Part shown: piece by piece, positions 21,804-30,605 of the stretch
How the letters are laid out: every line of letters starts with the position of its first letter
Numbering within the stretch: position 1 is the stretch's first letter
Virus record (IMG/VR): IMGVR_UViG_3300013004_003355
Coordinates: 1-47,248 of that record
DNA length: 47,248 bases
Origin: a virus
Direction: 5' to 3' (one strand)
Made by a program: the position numbers and the translations under genes
The notes under the pieces: model-generated
Told to the model about the DNA's origin: nothing
Database searches by the model: none
The model's input: the letters and a program-made list of their open reading frames with translations, nothing else

Positions 21804-24002
21804 ATGGCAGAAACTTTAGTATCACCAGGTGTATTAGCAAGAGAGAATGATAGTTCATTTGTTTCTCAAGGCCCAATAACCGCAGGAGCAGCTATTATAG
21901 GTCCAACAGTGAAAGGACCAGTAGAATTACCTACAGCTGTTACTTCATACTCACAGTTTGAGCAAATATTCGGTTCATCATTTCAAAGTGGTAGTCCTGC
22001 TCAAACATATTCTTATTTCACTTCCATAGCAGCTTATAATTACTTTAATAACGGTGGAACATCATTATTAGTAGCTCGCGTAGTGACAGGATCATATACC
22101 TCAGCTACAGCAAGTGCCGCTAACGGTGTAACTGGAGTAGGAGGAAATTATGCTTCAGCTTCATTTACAGTATTAGGCCCATACACAGCTTCTGGAGCCG
22201 GACAAGTTTTTGGTGGAACTATTAAAATAAATGTACCAACAAACATTTCTGGAGAAACTGTTAATTATTGGTTGCAACCATCATGGGGTGGATGGCAAGA
22301 ATATGACGCTGGTTCAAATACTGGATTTGTTAGTATGTCAGCTAATCCATCAATAGATGAATGGGGTGGTAAAATGGCAAACTTCATTAATAGTTCTTCT
22401 ATTAATAGTGTCACAAACGAAGTATATACTTTATTCTCAGCTTCATATAACACAGGTACAGATGTTCTTACTATATGGAGTAGAACTTCAAGTTCATTAT
22501 TAAATGGTACTACTGTTAGATACGGATTTGCTCCATTTAATTACATTTACGCTGGAGCTTCTGATAGTGCTTTCTCAGCAAGTGTAAGCTTAGGAGGTGG
22601 ATATGCTGGAGTATTATCAACTTCATTTACTTTAGAAACTTTATCTGAAGGTATTATAATGAATAGTGATAGTACACAAGACTCAGCTGGAGCATTACTA
22701 AGTGGATCATCAGATAATATCCGATATCAAATTGTTAACTCTAATGCTACTTCAGGAACATTTGATTTATTAATACGTCAAGGTAATGATAACACTTTAG
22801 AGCCAACAGTATTAGAAACATGGACTAATTTATCTTTAGATCCATTCTCTACAAACTATATATCTAAAGTAATAGGAGATCAATACTATACATTACAAAC
22901 TGATAGTGGAACAGGAACAAAATATTTACAATTAACTGGTAATTATCCGAACATATCAAAATATGTGAGAGTAGGTAGTGTTAACTATACAACACCAAAC
23001 TACTTCCAAAATAACGGAACATTCAACCCAGCATATACAGCTTCTTTACCTACTAATGCAAGTGGTGCATTTGGTGGAGCTTTAGGAGATATAAAAGCTG
23101 GAGCTAATTTTTATAATGCTGTTAATGCTAGTAATACTCAAGGTTTAGTAGGAGAAAATTATGATAACATGATTGCTTTATTAGCTAACCAAGATGATTA
23201 CAAGTATAATGTAATATTAACTCCTGGTTTGTATGATGCAGGTTATACTTCTCAAGTAACAAATATTATAACTAATACTCAAAACAGAGGAGATGCTATT
23301 TATGTAATTGACCCAGTAGCTTATGGTGCAGGAAGTGTTACTACAGTTACAGCTCAAGCTGCTACTAGAAATACATCATATGCTGCTGAATACTGGCCAT
23401 GGTGTCAAATTCAAGACCCAGCAACTGGACAAAACGTTTGGGTACCAGCTTCAACATTAATAGGTGGAGTTTATGCTTATAATGATAATGTTTCTGAGCC
23501 ATGGTTCGCACCAGCAGGTATAAACAGAGGTGGATTATCTCAAGTAATTAGAGCTGAAAGACGTTTACCACAAGGTGATAGAGATACTTTATATACTGGA
23601 AAAGTAAACCCAATAGCTACATTCCCAGGAACTGGAGTAGTAGTATACGGACAAAAGACATTACAAACAAGAGCAAGTGCTTTAGATCGTGTAAATGTTC
23701 GTCGTCTATTAATCGCTCTTAAGAACTATATCTCTCAAGTTGCTAATAACTTAGTATTTGAACAAAATACAGCTGCTACAAGAAATAACTTCTTAGCACA
23801 AGTTAACCCATACTTAGAGTCAGTTCAACAAAGACAAGGATTGTATGCTTTCCGAGTAATAATGGATGATAGTAATAATACTCCAACAGTAATTGATCAA
23901 AATCAAATGGTAGGACAAATTTATTTACAACCTACTAAAACTGCTGAATTTATTTACTTAGATTTCAATATTACACCAACTGGAGCAACTTTCCCAGCAT
24001 AA
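21804..24002 (+). CDS. Tail sheath protein (gp18-like)
   Basis: A 732-residue contractile sheath protein (T4 659). The N-terminus VSPGVLARENDSSF and GAAIIGPTVKGPVELPT are standard sheath features. The C-terminal domain has RLPQGDRDTLYTGKVNPIAT, VVYGQKTLQTRASALDRVNV, RRLLIALKNYISQVA and ESVQQRQGLYAFRVIMDDSN, all conserved in gp18 homologues. The middle (about 95-440) is variable and Ser/Ala/Asn-rich, as expected for the exposed domains. It polymerises on the tube protein encoded next. Confidence 0.95.
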   Translation: MAETLVSPGVLARENDSSFVSQGPITAGAAIIGPTVKGPVELPTAVTSYSQFEQIFGSSFQSGSPAQTYSYFTSIAAYNYFNNGGTSLLVARVVTGSYTSATASAANGVTGVGGNYASASFTVLGPYTASGAGQVFGGTIKINVPTNISGETVNYWLQPSWGGWQEYDAGSNTGFVSMSANPSIDEWGGKMANFINSSSINSVTNEVYTLFSASYNTGTDVLTIWSRTSSSLLNGTTVRYGFAPFNYIYAGASDSAFSASVSLGGGYAGVLSTSFTLETLSEGIIMNSDSTQDSAGALLSGSSDNIRYQIVNSNATSGTFDLLIRQGNDNTLEPTVLETWTNLSLDPFSTNYISKVIGDQYYTLQTDSGTGTKYLQLTGNYPNISKYVRVGSVNYTTPNYFQNNGTFNPAYTASLPTNASGAFGGALGDIKAGANFYNAVNASNTQGLVGENYDNMIALLANQDDYKYNVILTPGLYDAGYTSQVTNIITNTQNRGDAIYVIDPVAYGAGSVTTVTAQAATRNTSYAAEYWPWCQIQDPATGQNVWVPASTLIGGVYAYNDNVSEPWFAPAGINRGGLSQVIRAERRLPQGDRDTLYTGKVNPIATFPGTGVVVYGQKTLQTRASALDRVNVRRLLIALKNYISQVANNLVFEQNTAATRNNFLAQVNPYLESVQQRQGLYAFRVIMDDSNNTPTVIDQNQMVGQIYLQPTKTAEFIYLDFNITPTGATFPA

Positions 24003-24040: not shown

Positions 24041-24529
24041 ATGGCAATATTAGACGCAAACGAAATATTCTTCACAGCCTTTGAACCAAAACAGGCTAAC
24101 AGATTCATCCTTTATATGGATGGTATTCCTAGCTATATAGTTAAAGGAGTAAACGCTGTAACACTGACTCAAGGTGAAGTAACATTGAACCATATTAACG
24201 TATACAGAAAAGTTAAAGGAAAAACAACTTGGGGTAACATTCAAATGACATTATTTGACCCAATTACACCTTCCGGAGCTCAATCAGTAATGGAATGGGT
24301 TCGTTTACATCACGAATCAGTAACAGGTAGAGATGGATACTCTGACTTCTATAAAAAGGATTTAGTACTAGATGTATTAGGACCTGTAGGTGATGTAGTA
24401 AGTGAATGGATTATTAAAGGTGCCCTTATAACTGAAGCTAACTTTGGTGATTATAGTTGGGATACAGAAAACCAAGCAGTGAATATACAATTAACATTGA
24501 CAATGGATTACTGCGTATTAAACTTCTAA
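24041..24529 (+). CDS. Tail tube protein (gp19-like)
   Basis: A 162-residue tube subunit, within one residue of T4 gp19 (163). FTAFEPKQANRFILYMDGIP, WGNIQMTLFDPITPSGAQSV, MEWVRLHHESVTGRDGYSDF and LTLTMDYCVLNF are strongly family-like. It forms the inner tube of the contractile tail. It has its own late promoter and is closed by a strong terminator at 24551, which gives separate high expression from the downstream assembly genes. Confidence 0.95.
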   Translation: MAILDANEIFFTAFEPKQANRFILYMDGIPSYIVKGVNAVTLTQGEVTLNHINVYRKVKGKTTWGNIQMTLFDPITPSGAQSVMEWVRLHHESVTGRDGYSDFYKKDLVLDVLGPVGDVVSEWIIKGALITEANFGDYSWDTENQAVNIQLTLTMDYCVLNF

Positions 24530-24550: not shown

Positions 24551-24583
24551 GAGCTCGCATATTTTGCGAGCTTCTTTTTTTCT
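24551..24583 (+). terminator. Intrinsic terminator after tail tube gene
   Basis: AGCTCGCA (24552-24559), loop TATTT, TGCGAGCT (24565-24572), then TCTTTTTTTTCTT. A perfect 8-bp stem, extended by a G.T pair, with a long T-tract. Confidence 0.88.
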
Positions 24584-24625: not shown

Positions 24626-25357
24626 ATGAGCGAAAATAAATTAAACATTCCAACAGAAGTTGTTGAACTTCCATCATTAGGATTAATCTATCCTGAATCA
24701 TCACCATTATCAAGTGGTAAAATTGAAATGAAATATATGACGGCTAGAGAAGAAGATATTCTTACTAACCAAAACTATATATCAAAAGGAACAGTACTAG
24801 ACAAATTAATGCAATCACTTATAGTCTCAGATATAAATTATGATGAGTTATGTGTTGGTGACAAAAACGCTGTTATGGTAGCTGCCCGTGTATTAGGATA
24901 CGGTAAAGATTACTCAGTAACATATGGTGGTGAACAATATATTATTGACTTATCATTATTAGATAATAAATCATTAGATAAGAAATTATTTAAAAAAGGA
25001 GTAAACGAATTTGATTTTACTTTACCTCATACTAATACTCCTATTACATTTAAACTTTTAACTCATGGTGATGAAAAGAAAATTAGCCAAGAAATCGAAG
25101 GTTTAAAGAAAATCAATAAAGACACCTCACCAGAATTATCTACTCGTTTAAAATACATAATTACATCAGTAAATGGTGATCGTGAATTAAAAACAATTAG
25201 AGAATTTGTTGATAATTACTTATTAGCTCGTGATTCAAGAGCGTTAAGAGAATATATTAGACAAGTTCAACCTGATGTTGATTTAACATTTACTACAAAT
25301 GATGGAGAGGAGGCTATCATTCCAATCAATTTAAACTTTTTTTGGCCTGACATCTGA
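24626..25357 (+). CDS. Baseplate hub/assembly protein (gp26-like)
   Basis: A 243-residue protein. VVELPSLGLIYPESSPLSSG, IEMKYMTAREEDILTNQNYI, VLDKLMQSLIVSDINYDELC and AVMVAARVLGYGKDYSV match the gp26 baseplate-hub family of T4-like phages, where these segments are conserved. It lies between tail tube and tape measure, the standard position of tail-assembly chaperone genes in other tailed phages. The last codons AAC TTT TTT TGG CCT GAC ATC TGA contain a T7 run. The +1 frame that begins just there encodes a gp51-like protein without a usual start codon (25335-25628), so a part of the translation is probably shifted into a longer fusion. Confidence 0.8.
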   Translation: MSENKLNIPTEVVELPSLGLIYPESSPLSSGKIEMKYMTAREEDILTNQNYISKGTVLDKLMQSLIVSDINYDELCVGDKNAVMVAARVLGYGKDYSVTYGGEQYIIDLSLLDNKSLDKKLFKKGVNEFDFTLPHTNTPITFKLLTHGDEKKISQEIEGLKKINKDTSPELSTRLKYIITSVNGDRELKTIREFVDNYLLARDSRALREYIRQVQPDVDLTFTTNDGEEAIIPINLNFFWPDI

Positions 25358-25628
25358 TAACATCTCTGTAGTAAGAGCTAATTTATTTATTCAAATTCAT
25401 GAAATTGTTTTTCATGGTCAAGGTGGATATGATTGGGATACTATATATAACATGCCTTCATGGTTACGTAAGTTTACATTCAATCGAATACAAACTTATT
25501 ATAAAGAACAAAATAACGAACAGAATGAAGATTTAGCATCTCAATCTAAAAAGATAAAAGAAGGTAAAGTTGATTTACCATCTCATTTTAAAGGAAAAAT
25601 AGATAATAAAAAAATAGCCAAGTATTAA
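25335..25628 (+). CDS. gp51-like reading frame, probably made by ribosomal frameshift from gp26
   Basis: The +1 frame relative to gp26 is open from 25335 (after TAA at 25332-25334) to TAA at 25626-25628, 97 codons. Its translation includes ANLFIQIHEIVFHGQGGYDW and TIYNMPSWLRKFTFNRIQTY, which match the T4-family gp51 baseplate-hub assembly protein (IHEI.FHG.GGY....Y.MP.WLR.F). No ATG, GTG or TTG precedes this conserved part; the first ATG (25452) is inside it. A terminator overlaps its stop, which supports a true gene end. Expression is therefore most simply explained by a +1 or -2 shift at the T7 run 25337-25343, giving a fusion of about 335-340 residues. A non-AUG start (CTG 25347, ATC, ATT) or an indel error in the assembly are alternatives. 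Confidence 0.75.
   Translation, partial: TFFGLTSDNISVVRANLFIQIHEIVFHGQGGYDWDTIYNMPSWLRKFTFNRIQTYYKEQNNEQNEDLASQSKKIKEGKVDLPSHFKGKIDNKKIAKY
25337..25343 (+). other. Candidate slippery site (T7) for programmed frameshift
   Basis: Seven T between AAC and GGC: zero frame reads AAC TTT TTT TGG, the shifted frame continues TTT GGC CTG. The overlap of the two open frames is only 25335-25354, so the shift must occur in about 20 bases, and the T run is the only repetitive element there. Confidence 0.6.
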
Positions 25629-28128: not shown

Positions 28129-28410
28129 ATGGGATTATTAGATTTACTTCAAAACCAAGGATCTACCTTAACAGCTTATGATGGGACTACTCCTAGTATT
28201 AATCCACTAGCTACTCCTCAATCTCAAATGCATACTGGGTATTCAATTAATGGCACTAACGCTAATGTTGTCAATGGATCATATCAAGAGTACTTAGATG
28301 GTACTGCTAACTTTTTACCAACACCATCACAATTAGATTTAAATGGTGCTACCCCAAATATCTCTCCAAGCGGACAAGGGTTACCATATTTGAATAATTT
28401 ACCTGGATAA
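28129..28410 (+). CDS. Small tail/baseplate-region protein
   Basis: A 93-residue Asn/Pro/Gly/Thr-rich protein with little predicted helix, for example LATPQSQMHTGYSING and SPSGQGLPYLNNLPG. No family recognised. It starts MGLLDLLQNQG, echoing the MGLIDLRTDL of the next protein, which overlaps its stop by one base (TAATG). Probably a baseplate component; it is the first gene of a unit reaching at least 36311. Confidence 0.55.
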   Translation: MGLLDLLQNQGSTLTAYDGTTPSINPLATPQSQMHTGYSINGTNANVVNGSYQEYLDGTANFLPTPSQLDLNGATPNISPSGQGLPYLNNLPG

Positions 28411-30605
28411 TGGGATTAATTGATTTAAGAACTGATCTTAAATCTCTCAGATATGGTAATGATCAAAGAGGAGGTGGTTCAAGTAACCAACCTTACATTA
28501 CCACTTCCATACCTGAGGGTTTTGCTCCAACGTCAACAGATTTTTTGTTACGTAATGGATATTTAAACCCTGTTAACTCATTCCAGGATGTAAAAAGATT
28601 ATCTAAATTCTTTACTGATACAAAAACTCCTAATGGTTTATTATTCACTATTAAACAACAATTATTAGAGAGACAAAATCCTAAATTAGTTAATATTAAT
28701 AGAATTTATAATCCATTAGGAACATTAGCTCAAGCTGGTTTAAATTCTTTAGGTTTTCATGTTAATAAACAAGGTTTAAACCCATCAGAACCATCATATT
28801 TTAATGGTGGAACTTATGGTTATTACTACGCTACTAGAGGATTAGGTACAAATCCTCAATCTCAATTTTTACAAGGTGAAGGATATGAAAATAGATTAAC
28901 TATAGCATATACTGCTAAAATAGAAAAAAAACCATTAGGTTCTTTAACTATTAATCCTTTTGGTATAACAAATTTATCTGGGGAAAATATTCTATTATCA
29001 TATTCTGGAGGTCCTAATGCTCCATTAGGATTAGGGATAACTAATATTAGAATTAAAAATCCTACTCGTACTGTAGATTTACCTAAAGATAGAACTACAT
29101 TTAGACTTAAAATAGGTGGAGACAATATTGCTAATAAAAATTATTTAACATATACTGGTAAACCAAATATCAATTGGGTTCTTGATGAGTATAAACTTAA
29201 TATATCTAATCAGGTTATATTTGATTTAGATTTAGAAAATAATCAAGATATATTATTTACAAATAATGTTAGTAATATATTAAATAGAAGCAATGATAAT
29301 GTTGTAAGTACATTATATGCTCCTATATCTGCTAAAGAAAGTACATTAGAAATAAACAGACTAGGATCAGATCCTTCTAAACCAGAATATTATACTCCTA
29401 CTAGTTTAAGAGTTAGTAATTATGGTTACCAAGTATCATCATCTGGAGTAACTGAAGCAGCTATAAATAGATTTAAACTAGTAACAGACAGAAATAGTAC
29501 AACACTCCCACTTGAAAATAGAAATGATCTATACTTTTCAGATGCTAATATAGCAGGTTTTGTTGGAGCTTTTCCAAAGAATGTTGATGAAAGTAATAAT
29601 GTTCGTACTTTTTCAACTACACAATTATTAGACGCTGAGTCTGCTGGAAAATTAAAAGATACAGATTTTGGGACAAATGTTATAGATTTTAGATCAACAA
29701 TTGATGCTAGTTTAGGTGGTGGTAAAATTGTATCTACTAACTATAGTTTTTTTAACAGAGAAAATAAAAGCCAAGACCAAGAAGGATATGGTACTAGTAA
29801 AACCTCATTTAAAGGAAATTATACAGCAGATAGAGGAAGAGTATTAAACCCAAATATAGCTATATCAAATGATCAATTTGAAATAGGTAAAAACGGAGAA
29901 GATATTATAGATTTTAACTTTAGAATACTTAATCCAGCAAACACAGGAAATAATAGATTAATTGATTTTAGAGCATATCTTGAATCATGGAGTGATGGAG
30001 TAAAAGCTGATTATAATCCTGTTAAATACATGGGTAGAGCTGAAAGTTTTTATAAATATGGTGGATTTTCAAGAGATTCTTCTATTGAATTTTTAGTTCC
30101 TGCTTTATCAAGAGGAGATATGATTTCTAATTATCGTAAAGTTAATATGATGATGTGGGCATGTGCTCCTAATTACTCTAGTATAGGATTAATGAGAGGT
30201 AATATTACTGAAGTGTCAATGGGTTCTTATTTTAGAAGTATGCCTTCTATTATTAAAAGTGTAGATGTGGTTGAAATAGATGGAATGGGATGGGATATAA
30301 ATCGAAACCAAGAAGGTAAGGTCATTGACTTCCCAGCAGAATATAAAGATAGTATAGGCTTTCAAGATCCTAAAGATTTTGCACCACCAACAGCTGATGA
30401 TTTTTTTACTGGGCAGTTGCCAAAAGGATTAAAAATAACAGTTCAATTCACTCCACTCCATCAATTCACCCCAGAATATGGTCAAGCATTTATAGGTCAA
30501 AATCAAACATATGCTGGTCCATTATGGAATCAGGAAAGCACAATTAATAGAAGTGTATTCTTTTCTTCTGAAGAAAGAAATTATTTTCAAGCATCACCAA
30601 AATGA
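28410..30605 (+). CDS. Large baseplate-region structural protein
   Basis: A 731-residue protein, family not recognised. It is rich in Asn, Tyr, Gly and beta-prone sequence, with IDFRAYLESWSDGVKADYNP, NYRKVNMMMWACAPNYSSIG and LKITVQFTPLHQFTPEYGQA in the C-terminal third. The last of these resembles the tube-like (gp27/gpD fold) part of hub proteins, but that is weak. It lies between tape measure and hub, co-translated with neighbours (TAATG at start, ATGA at end), so a central baseplate role is inferred. Confidence 0.6.
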   Translation: MGLIDLRTDLKSLRYGNDQRGGGSSNQPYITTSIPEGFAPTSTDFLLRNGYLNPVNSFQDVKRLSKFFTDTKTPNGLLFTIKQQLLERQNPKLVNINRIYNPLGTLAQAGLNSLGFHVNKQGLNPSEPSYFNGGTYGYYYATRGLGTNPQSQFLQGEGYENRLTIAYTAKIEKKPLGSLTINPFGITNLSGENILLSYSGGPNAPLGLGITNIRIKNPTRTVDLPKDRTTFRLKIGGDNIANKNYLTYTGKPNINWVLDEYKLNISNQVIFDLDLENNQDILFTNNVSNILNRSNDNVVSTLYAPISAKESTLEINRLGSDPSKPEYYTPTSLRVSNYGYQVSSSGVTEAAINRFKLVTDRNSTTLPLENRNDLYFSDANIAGFVGAFPKNVDESNNVRTFSTTQLLDAESAGKLKDTDFGTNVIDFRSTIDASLGGGKIVSTNYSFFNRENKSQDQEGYGTSKTSFKGNYTADRGRVLNPNIAISNDQFEIGKNGEDIIDFNFRILNPANTGNNRLIDFRAYLESWSDGVKADYNPVKYMGRAESFYKYGGFSRDSSIEFLVPALSRGDMISNYRKVNMMMWACAPNYSSIGLMRGNITEVSMGSYFRSMPSIIKSVDVVEIDGMGWDINRNQEGKVIDFPAEYKDSIGFQDPKDFAPPTADDFFTGQLPKGLKITVQFTPLHQFTPEYGQAFIGQNQTYAGPLWNQESTINRSVFFSSEERNYFQASPK

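Follow-up and report, generated by a model that had tools for sequence, protein, structure and literature searches.

Background

In phage lambda, the G and GT proteins bind the tape measure protein, and the T part recruits the tube protein (PMC5009743). The T4 proteins gp26 and gp51 are hub assembly chaperones, gp51 being essential and not found in the particle (PMC3004832), and in the open-access literature we found no earlier report of a gp26/gp51 frameshift. A sequence-only reading of the virus record analyzed here, called the window (the whole stretch of 47,248 bases, 32% G+C), had proposed gp26 and gp51 as the counterpart of G and GT in T4-type phages, made at this locus as gp26 and a gp26-gp51 fusion. 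That proposal has survived every sequence test we made, and we describe below how the locus compares with its relatives.

Organization of the locus

The genes of interest in the window follow the order sheath, tube, ORF1, ORF2 and probable tape measure (Table 1), and a tape measure protein is annotated at the equivalent place in the phages immuto, SP-15 and LIS04. ORF2 lies in the +1 (equivalently −2) frame relative to ORF1, and its frame is open from position 25335 to a stop codon at 25626-25628 (97 codons), with a TAA at 25332-25334 closing it just 5′ of a run of seven T (25337-25343). As the sequence-only reading had noted, there is no ATG, GTG or TTG before the conserved part: none occurs in the first 39 codons, and the first is the 40th codon (index 39), already within the conserved region. 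Of the plus-strand stretches in the window that stay open for 60 or more codons, ORF2 alone has no start in its first 30. In its own frame, ORF1 ends with AAC TTT TTT TGG CCT GAC ATC TGA; the two genes do overlap in different frames as had been described, although over 23 nt (25335-25357) and not over the T run alone. Because further runs of seven T begin at 24575, 29747, 30401 and 32369 in the window, the run by itself is unremarkable. A read error in its length, which had been a concern, is excluded in practice, since TTTTTTTGG recurs unchanged in independent contigs at about 70-92% ORF1 protein identity.

Table 1. Positions of the ORF1/ORF2 features and neighboring genes in the window
Feature	Position	Strand	Remarks
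Tail sheath protein	21804..24002	+	phrog_23, E 4e-75
Tail tube protein	24041..24529	+	phrog_4542, E 7e-22
Terminator-like hairpin, 3′ of tail tube gene and 5′ of ORF1	24551..24573	+	
ORF1, gp26-like (G-like)	24626..25357	+	243 aa, ATG start; phrog_150 (baseplate hub), E 1.3e-8
Predicted +1 fusion (GT-like), 333 aa	24626..25628	+	Conceptual translation; aligns with positions 7-264 of 282 in phrog_150
Slip site, TTT TTT TGG in the ORF1 frame	25337..25345	+	Unchanged in 80 close relatives
ORF2 (gp51-like, T-like), as read after the slip: GLTSDNISVVRANLFIQIHEIVFHGQGGYDWDTIYNMPSWLRKFTFNRI...	25344..25628	+	183 loci with the same frame
Terminator-like hairpin covering the ORF2 stop codon	25616..25637	+	
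Probable tape measure protein, 809 aa	25668..28097	+	Position and size; direct PHROG match only at E 0.098

The terminator previously placed at the ORF2 stop codon is a real hairpin, and with hairpins both 5′ of ORF1 and over this stop codon, the ORF1/ORF2 pair seems to form a separate transcription unit. No enrichment of the late-promoter-like motif TATATTTAT was found. The assertion that ORF2 carries strong family sequence is supported by its tblastn relatives and by the profile comparisons described below, although ORF2 alone has no significant direct match to a Pfam or PHROGs family; the window's ORF1 protein likewise did not match Pfam PF12322 at E ≤ 0.1. Elsewhere in the window, positions 30395-30410 (GAT GAT TTT TTT ACT) place T_TTT_TTT in −1 slippery phase within a 731-aa ORF (28410-30605), away from gene ends. 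Neither this ORF nor the one at 28129-28410, both 3′ of the tape measure gene, matched a PHROGs or Pfam family.

Conservation of the +1 arrangement among relatives

A first scan of IMG/VR yielded 80 loci encoding relatives of ORF1, and in all 81 sequences (these loci plus the window) ORF2 was in the +1 frame and TTTTTTTGGCC was present. The total set of +1 loci, drawn from IMG/VR contigs and named phages, came to 183, with identity down to about 26%; as IMG/VR loci are not independent of each other, this and the other locus counts do not equal counts of evolutionary events. Alignment for frame relation and T run, as had been suggested, showed the same +1 frame and the same Phe-Phe codons throughout the 183. 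Among the named members are Flavobacterium phage immuto, Microcystis phage Mel-JY01, Bacillus phage SP-15, Rhodothermus phage RM378, Listeria phage LIS04 and Streptococcus phage GXN1.

Many relatives have some ATG or TTG upstream in the ORF2 frame; in 33 of 93 non-redundant loci there is no ATG, GTG or TTG ahead of ORF2 residue 5, and in 16 the frame is closed at most 12 nt from the slip. Codon usage was compared across 59 conserved columns of ORF1, where synonymous conservation was greatest at Phe239, Pro241 and Phe238. The highest-ranking of these, Phe239, is TTT in every one of 91 non-redundant sequences, and its third T is dispensable for coding Phe in the ORF1 frame and required for re-pairing in the +1 frame. 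Double coding accounts for part of the conservation of Pro241, the T of which also serves as the middle base of an ORF2 Leu codon. For Phe238, which is TTT in 87 of 90 sequences, conservation exceeds what a +1 slip confined to the second codon would need, and this counts against our best explanation.

Relatives with a separate ORF2 start, which the sequence-only reading had set against a frameshift, do exist but are rare. At two loci (L182 and L187), ORF2 lies just 3′ of the ORF1 stop codon as a separate gene in a different frame. It has an ATG and gains about 28 N-terminal residues, and the slip codons differ (TTC TTG TAT and TTC CTT TGG CCA); a free form of the ORF2 protein can thus be viable. 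At one further locus (L026:3717-3805), a TGA replaces the conserved TGG inside ORF2 (GYD*ATVYNMP), which could reflect recoding, a defective copy or an error in the reads.

A position between the tube and tape measure genes, as in the window, was not found in RM378 or in the Rak2-like relatives described below. The RM378 cassette (L085) adjoins an oppositely oriented tail tube gene, and gene order is not conserved there. In deposited genomes, ORF2 appears as a short separate gene of 111 bp in immuto, 120 bp in SP-15, 210 bp in 121Q and 174 bp in S-PM2 (L081, L084, L200 and L211), and is unannotated in LIS04 (L086). Across the named phage genomes inspected, ORF2 is absent, mis-started or annotated separately, so the fusion is missing from those annotations.

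Predicted slip site and direction of the shift

The most frequent slip site by far was TTT TTT TGG CC (156 loci), followed by TTC TTT TGG (14) and CTT TTT TGG (3), with two loci each for TTT TTT CAC (SP-15 and an IMG/VR copy), TTT TTT TGG AA (RM378 and a copy) and TTT TTT TAC, and single occurrences of TTT CTT TGG (immuto), TTC TTT CGT (GXN1), TTT TTT AGT (LIS04) and AAC TTT CTA (LR756508). With a +1 slip at the second codon, re-pairing is good at all of these sites except that of LIS04, where the Phe tRNA would land on UUA and a slip at the first UUU (or some other route) would work; at the LR756508 site, the single UUU would slip onto UUC.

The direction of the shift had been left as either +1 or −2, and the variants favor the first of these. 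A −2 ribosomal frameshift on the T run would add one extra Phe, as in phage Mu, for which such a shift is known (review PMC5009743); on seven T, the Phe tRNA could move back by two bases and still pair, and TTT is almost universal as the first Phe codon. However, in the 14 relatives with TTC TTT TGG, in immuto (TTT CTT TGG) and in GXN1 (TTC TTT CGT), the codon reached by moving back (UCU or UUC) mismatches the Phe or Leu tRNA, whereas +1 re-pairing works. Because these variants re-pair in the +1 direction only, we prefer +1 and consider a −2 shift improbable.

The same variants bear on whether the frames might be joined in the transcript. RNA polymerase slippage on the seven T would produce mRNAs with six or nine U, and homopolymer runs can cause such slips (review PMC5009743). 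Yet relatives keep the frames where the longest T run is only three (TTTCTTTGG) or four (TTCTTTTGG), and slippage of this kind would leave the codon phase and the TGG unconstrained. As T runs of only three or four retain the arrangement, we regard transcriptional slippage as almost certainly the wrong explanation.

A search for stimulatory signals of a ribosomal +1 shift found no stimulator: predicted RNA structure downstream of the site had a mean z of −0.46, equal to that of control regions, with none conserved, and there was no enrichment of Shine-Dalgarno-like sequences upstream. Some tailed-phage frameshifts apparently need no stimulators (review PMC5009743). Judged on sequence evidence, ORF2 is very probably expressed through a +1 frameshift at the Phe-Phe pair, with one gene giving two proteins.

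Relatives with ORF2 in the −1 frame

Rak2-like jumbo phages, and likewise the uncultured phage LR756511, have ORF2 in the −1 frame, with U_UUU_UUC at the same Phe-Phe. Other −1 phages were Atu_ph07, PA5oct, 121Q, Vibrio 2.275.O, SCTP-2, GAP32, Munch, XbC2 and RAS14, the site in the last being UUUUUUU. Cyanophage-type loci were uniform, with U_UUU_UUC and a −1 ORF2 in 81 out of 81. In S-PM2, a T4-like cyanophage, the sequence at the site is TCT TTT TTC GCA TAA, and phrog_150 matches at positions 5-234 in one frame and at 227-281 (E 1.4e-8) in the overlapping −1 frame. The S-PM2 ORF2, annotated as a separate 57-aa ‘gp51’, also has a match (E 3e-5) to the full-length gp51 from the T4-type phage IME13, at residues 179-247.

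Relation to T4 gp26 and gp51

Both T4 proteins match PF12322 (E 8.8e-64 for gp26 and 3.9e-52 for gp51) and phrog_150, in which gp26 ends at position 235 and gp51 at 280. In most frameshift-type phages, ORF1 ends near 233-236 of phrog_150 (range 222-247), with shorter matches for the window and immuto; E-values for the relatives ranged from 1e-12 to 1e-36 and that for immuto was 4e-10, and PF12322 is annotated on the Vibrio phage 2.275.O relative. A plain HMM search with a profile of window-like sequences gave nothing above shuffles against T4 gp26 and gp51, and the match required a diverse profile that included Rak2-like members. With this diverse fusion profile, hhalign scored gp26 at 94 (permutation maximum 27) and gp51 at 65 (24). 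The ORF2 profile scored best on the C-terminal piece of gp51 (22.95, against a maximum of 15.4 in 150 column permutations), and other pieces were lower.

The family is present in two copies in each of seven T4-type (Straboviridae) genomes and in one copy in each of 17 frameshift-type genomes. Within the T4-type pairs, one protein ends near position 236 of the profile (near 250 in 44RR) and the other at 281-282. T4 gp26 still ends with GLKEFFELL, and its codons TTC TTT GAG no longer hold the −1 heptamer. In Enterobacter phage EC-F2 (L197:1501-2791), gp51 and gp26 follow gp54 as a tandem pair on a single strand, unlike the divergent order in T4. On these sequence comparisons, T4 gp26 and gp51 are paralogs, with gp26 ending at the slip position and gp51 consisting of a gp26-like part plus an ORF2-like domain. 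The idea that a T4-type tail would be covered by the G/GT frameshift therefore stands for phages like that of the window, but not for T4 itself, where gp26 and gp51 are separate genes.

These comparisons also bear on whether ORF2 could be made as a separate protein, by re-initiation or from a non-AUG start near the ORF1 stop codon, with no fusion at all. Overlapping genes are commonly coupled in translation, initiation at AUU has reportedly been seen for T4 gene 26, ORF2 is free and has an ATG in L182 and L187, and the S-PM2 gp51 carries its own annotation. Such a route would, however, leave unexplained the invariant slippery codons, the fixed frame relation and the canonical −1 heptamers of relatives, as well as the continuous phrog_150 match across the S-PM2 junction and the nature of T4 gp51 as a full-length G+T fusion, and we judge it very unlikely.

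Taken with a +1 frameshift in the window, it appears likely that the G/GT gene of T4-type phages has its slip fixed at one Phe-Phe pair, with the direction switching between −1 (U_UUU_UUC) and +1 (YUU_U) by lineage and with a duplication into gp26 (G) and gp51 (GT) in T4 proper, which would resolve the T4 ‘exception’. If this is true, that exception vanishes, and gp26 and gp51 become the G and GT of T4-type tails, with roles that can be tested directly. It would also mean that, at one position of a homologous gene, a single problem has been solved in three ways: by −1 frameshifting, by +1 frameshifting and by gene duplication.

Predicted structures

The halves encoded by ORF1 and ORF2 were folded separately with AF2. 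The ORF1 model (pLDDT 93.8) had 46 matches in BFVD at E ≤ 1e-3, mostly to T4-type baseplate hub or hub assembly proteins or to unnamed ones, and a Foldseek search of the PDB gave no significant match. When compared with 770 PDB chains, the best two were tail assembly chaperones, both weak matches of low Z that covered different parts of the model: YqbN (3klu; Z 5.8, rmsd 5.3, 89 aligned) and HK97 gp13 (2ob9; Z 4.7, rmsd 4.0, 92 aligned). For the AF2 model of Bg_9562, which has been assigned to the tail assembly chaperones, DALI Z values against the same structures were 4.4-4.5 (PMC9603447). The fold likeness of the ORF1 model to tail assembly chaperones would thus count as weak support and no proof. 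The ORF2 model was mostly helical (pLDDT 78) and gave no fold match.

Proposed mechanism and function

Most ribosomes would terminate at 25355-25357 and release the gp26-like (G-like) protein. In a minority, the Phe tRNA would sit in the P site on UUU at 25340-25342 with UGG waiting in the A site, and would move +1 onto UUU at 25341-25343, leaving GGC at 25344 as the next codon. The slip would give the fusion its C-terminal helical ORF2 domain. Both the occurrence of slippage and its efficiency are what we infer from sequence. In immuto, the expected junction peptide would be ...DIPIGVSFLGLTPEYR for a slip at CUU or ...SFFGLTPEYR for a slip at the first UUU. The two proteins would act as tape-measure chaperones in tail assembly, like lambda G and GT, a role that is most likely by analogy, given their position, mode of expression and homology to gp26 and gp51.

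Comparison with known systems

Like lambda G/GT and its counterparts in P2, Mu and HK97, the window has a gene pair between the tail tube and tape measure genes in which a start-less second ORF overlaps the first in another frame at a slippery site, for a short and an extended product. The shift is −1 in lambda and P2 and −2 in Mu and would be +1 in the window, and the likeness is one of arrangement. In the prfB and Listeria phage PSA frameshifts, as proposed for the window, the P-site tRNA slips +1, and the immuto variant CUU U matches the prfB shift codon; in contrast to these two systems, the A site of the window and its relatives is UGG or another sense codon and not a stop codon, and the window has no Shine-Dalgarno signal. 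The gp26 and short ‘gp51’ of cyanophage S-PM2 resemble the window in having two ORFs that overlap at the same Phe-Phe, and differ in the −1 frame, the U_UUU_UUC site and the annotation as separate genes. T4 gp26 and gp51, unlike the single copy in the window, are encoded by two genes that diverge from each other across 50 bp, and no frameshift is involved. The finding is a probable +1 version of the known G/GT frameshift, in a T4-type gp26/gp51 gene.
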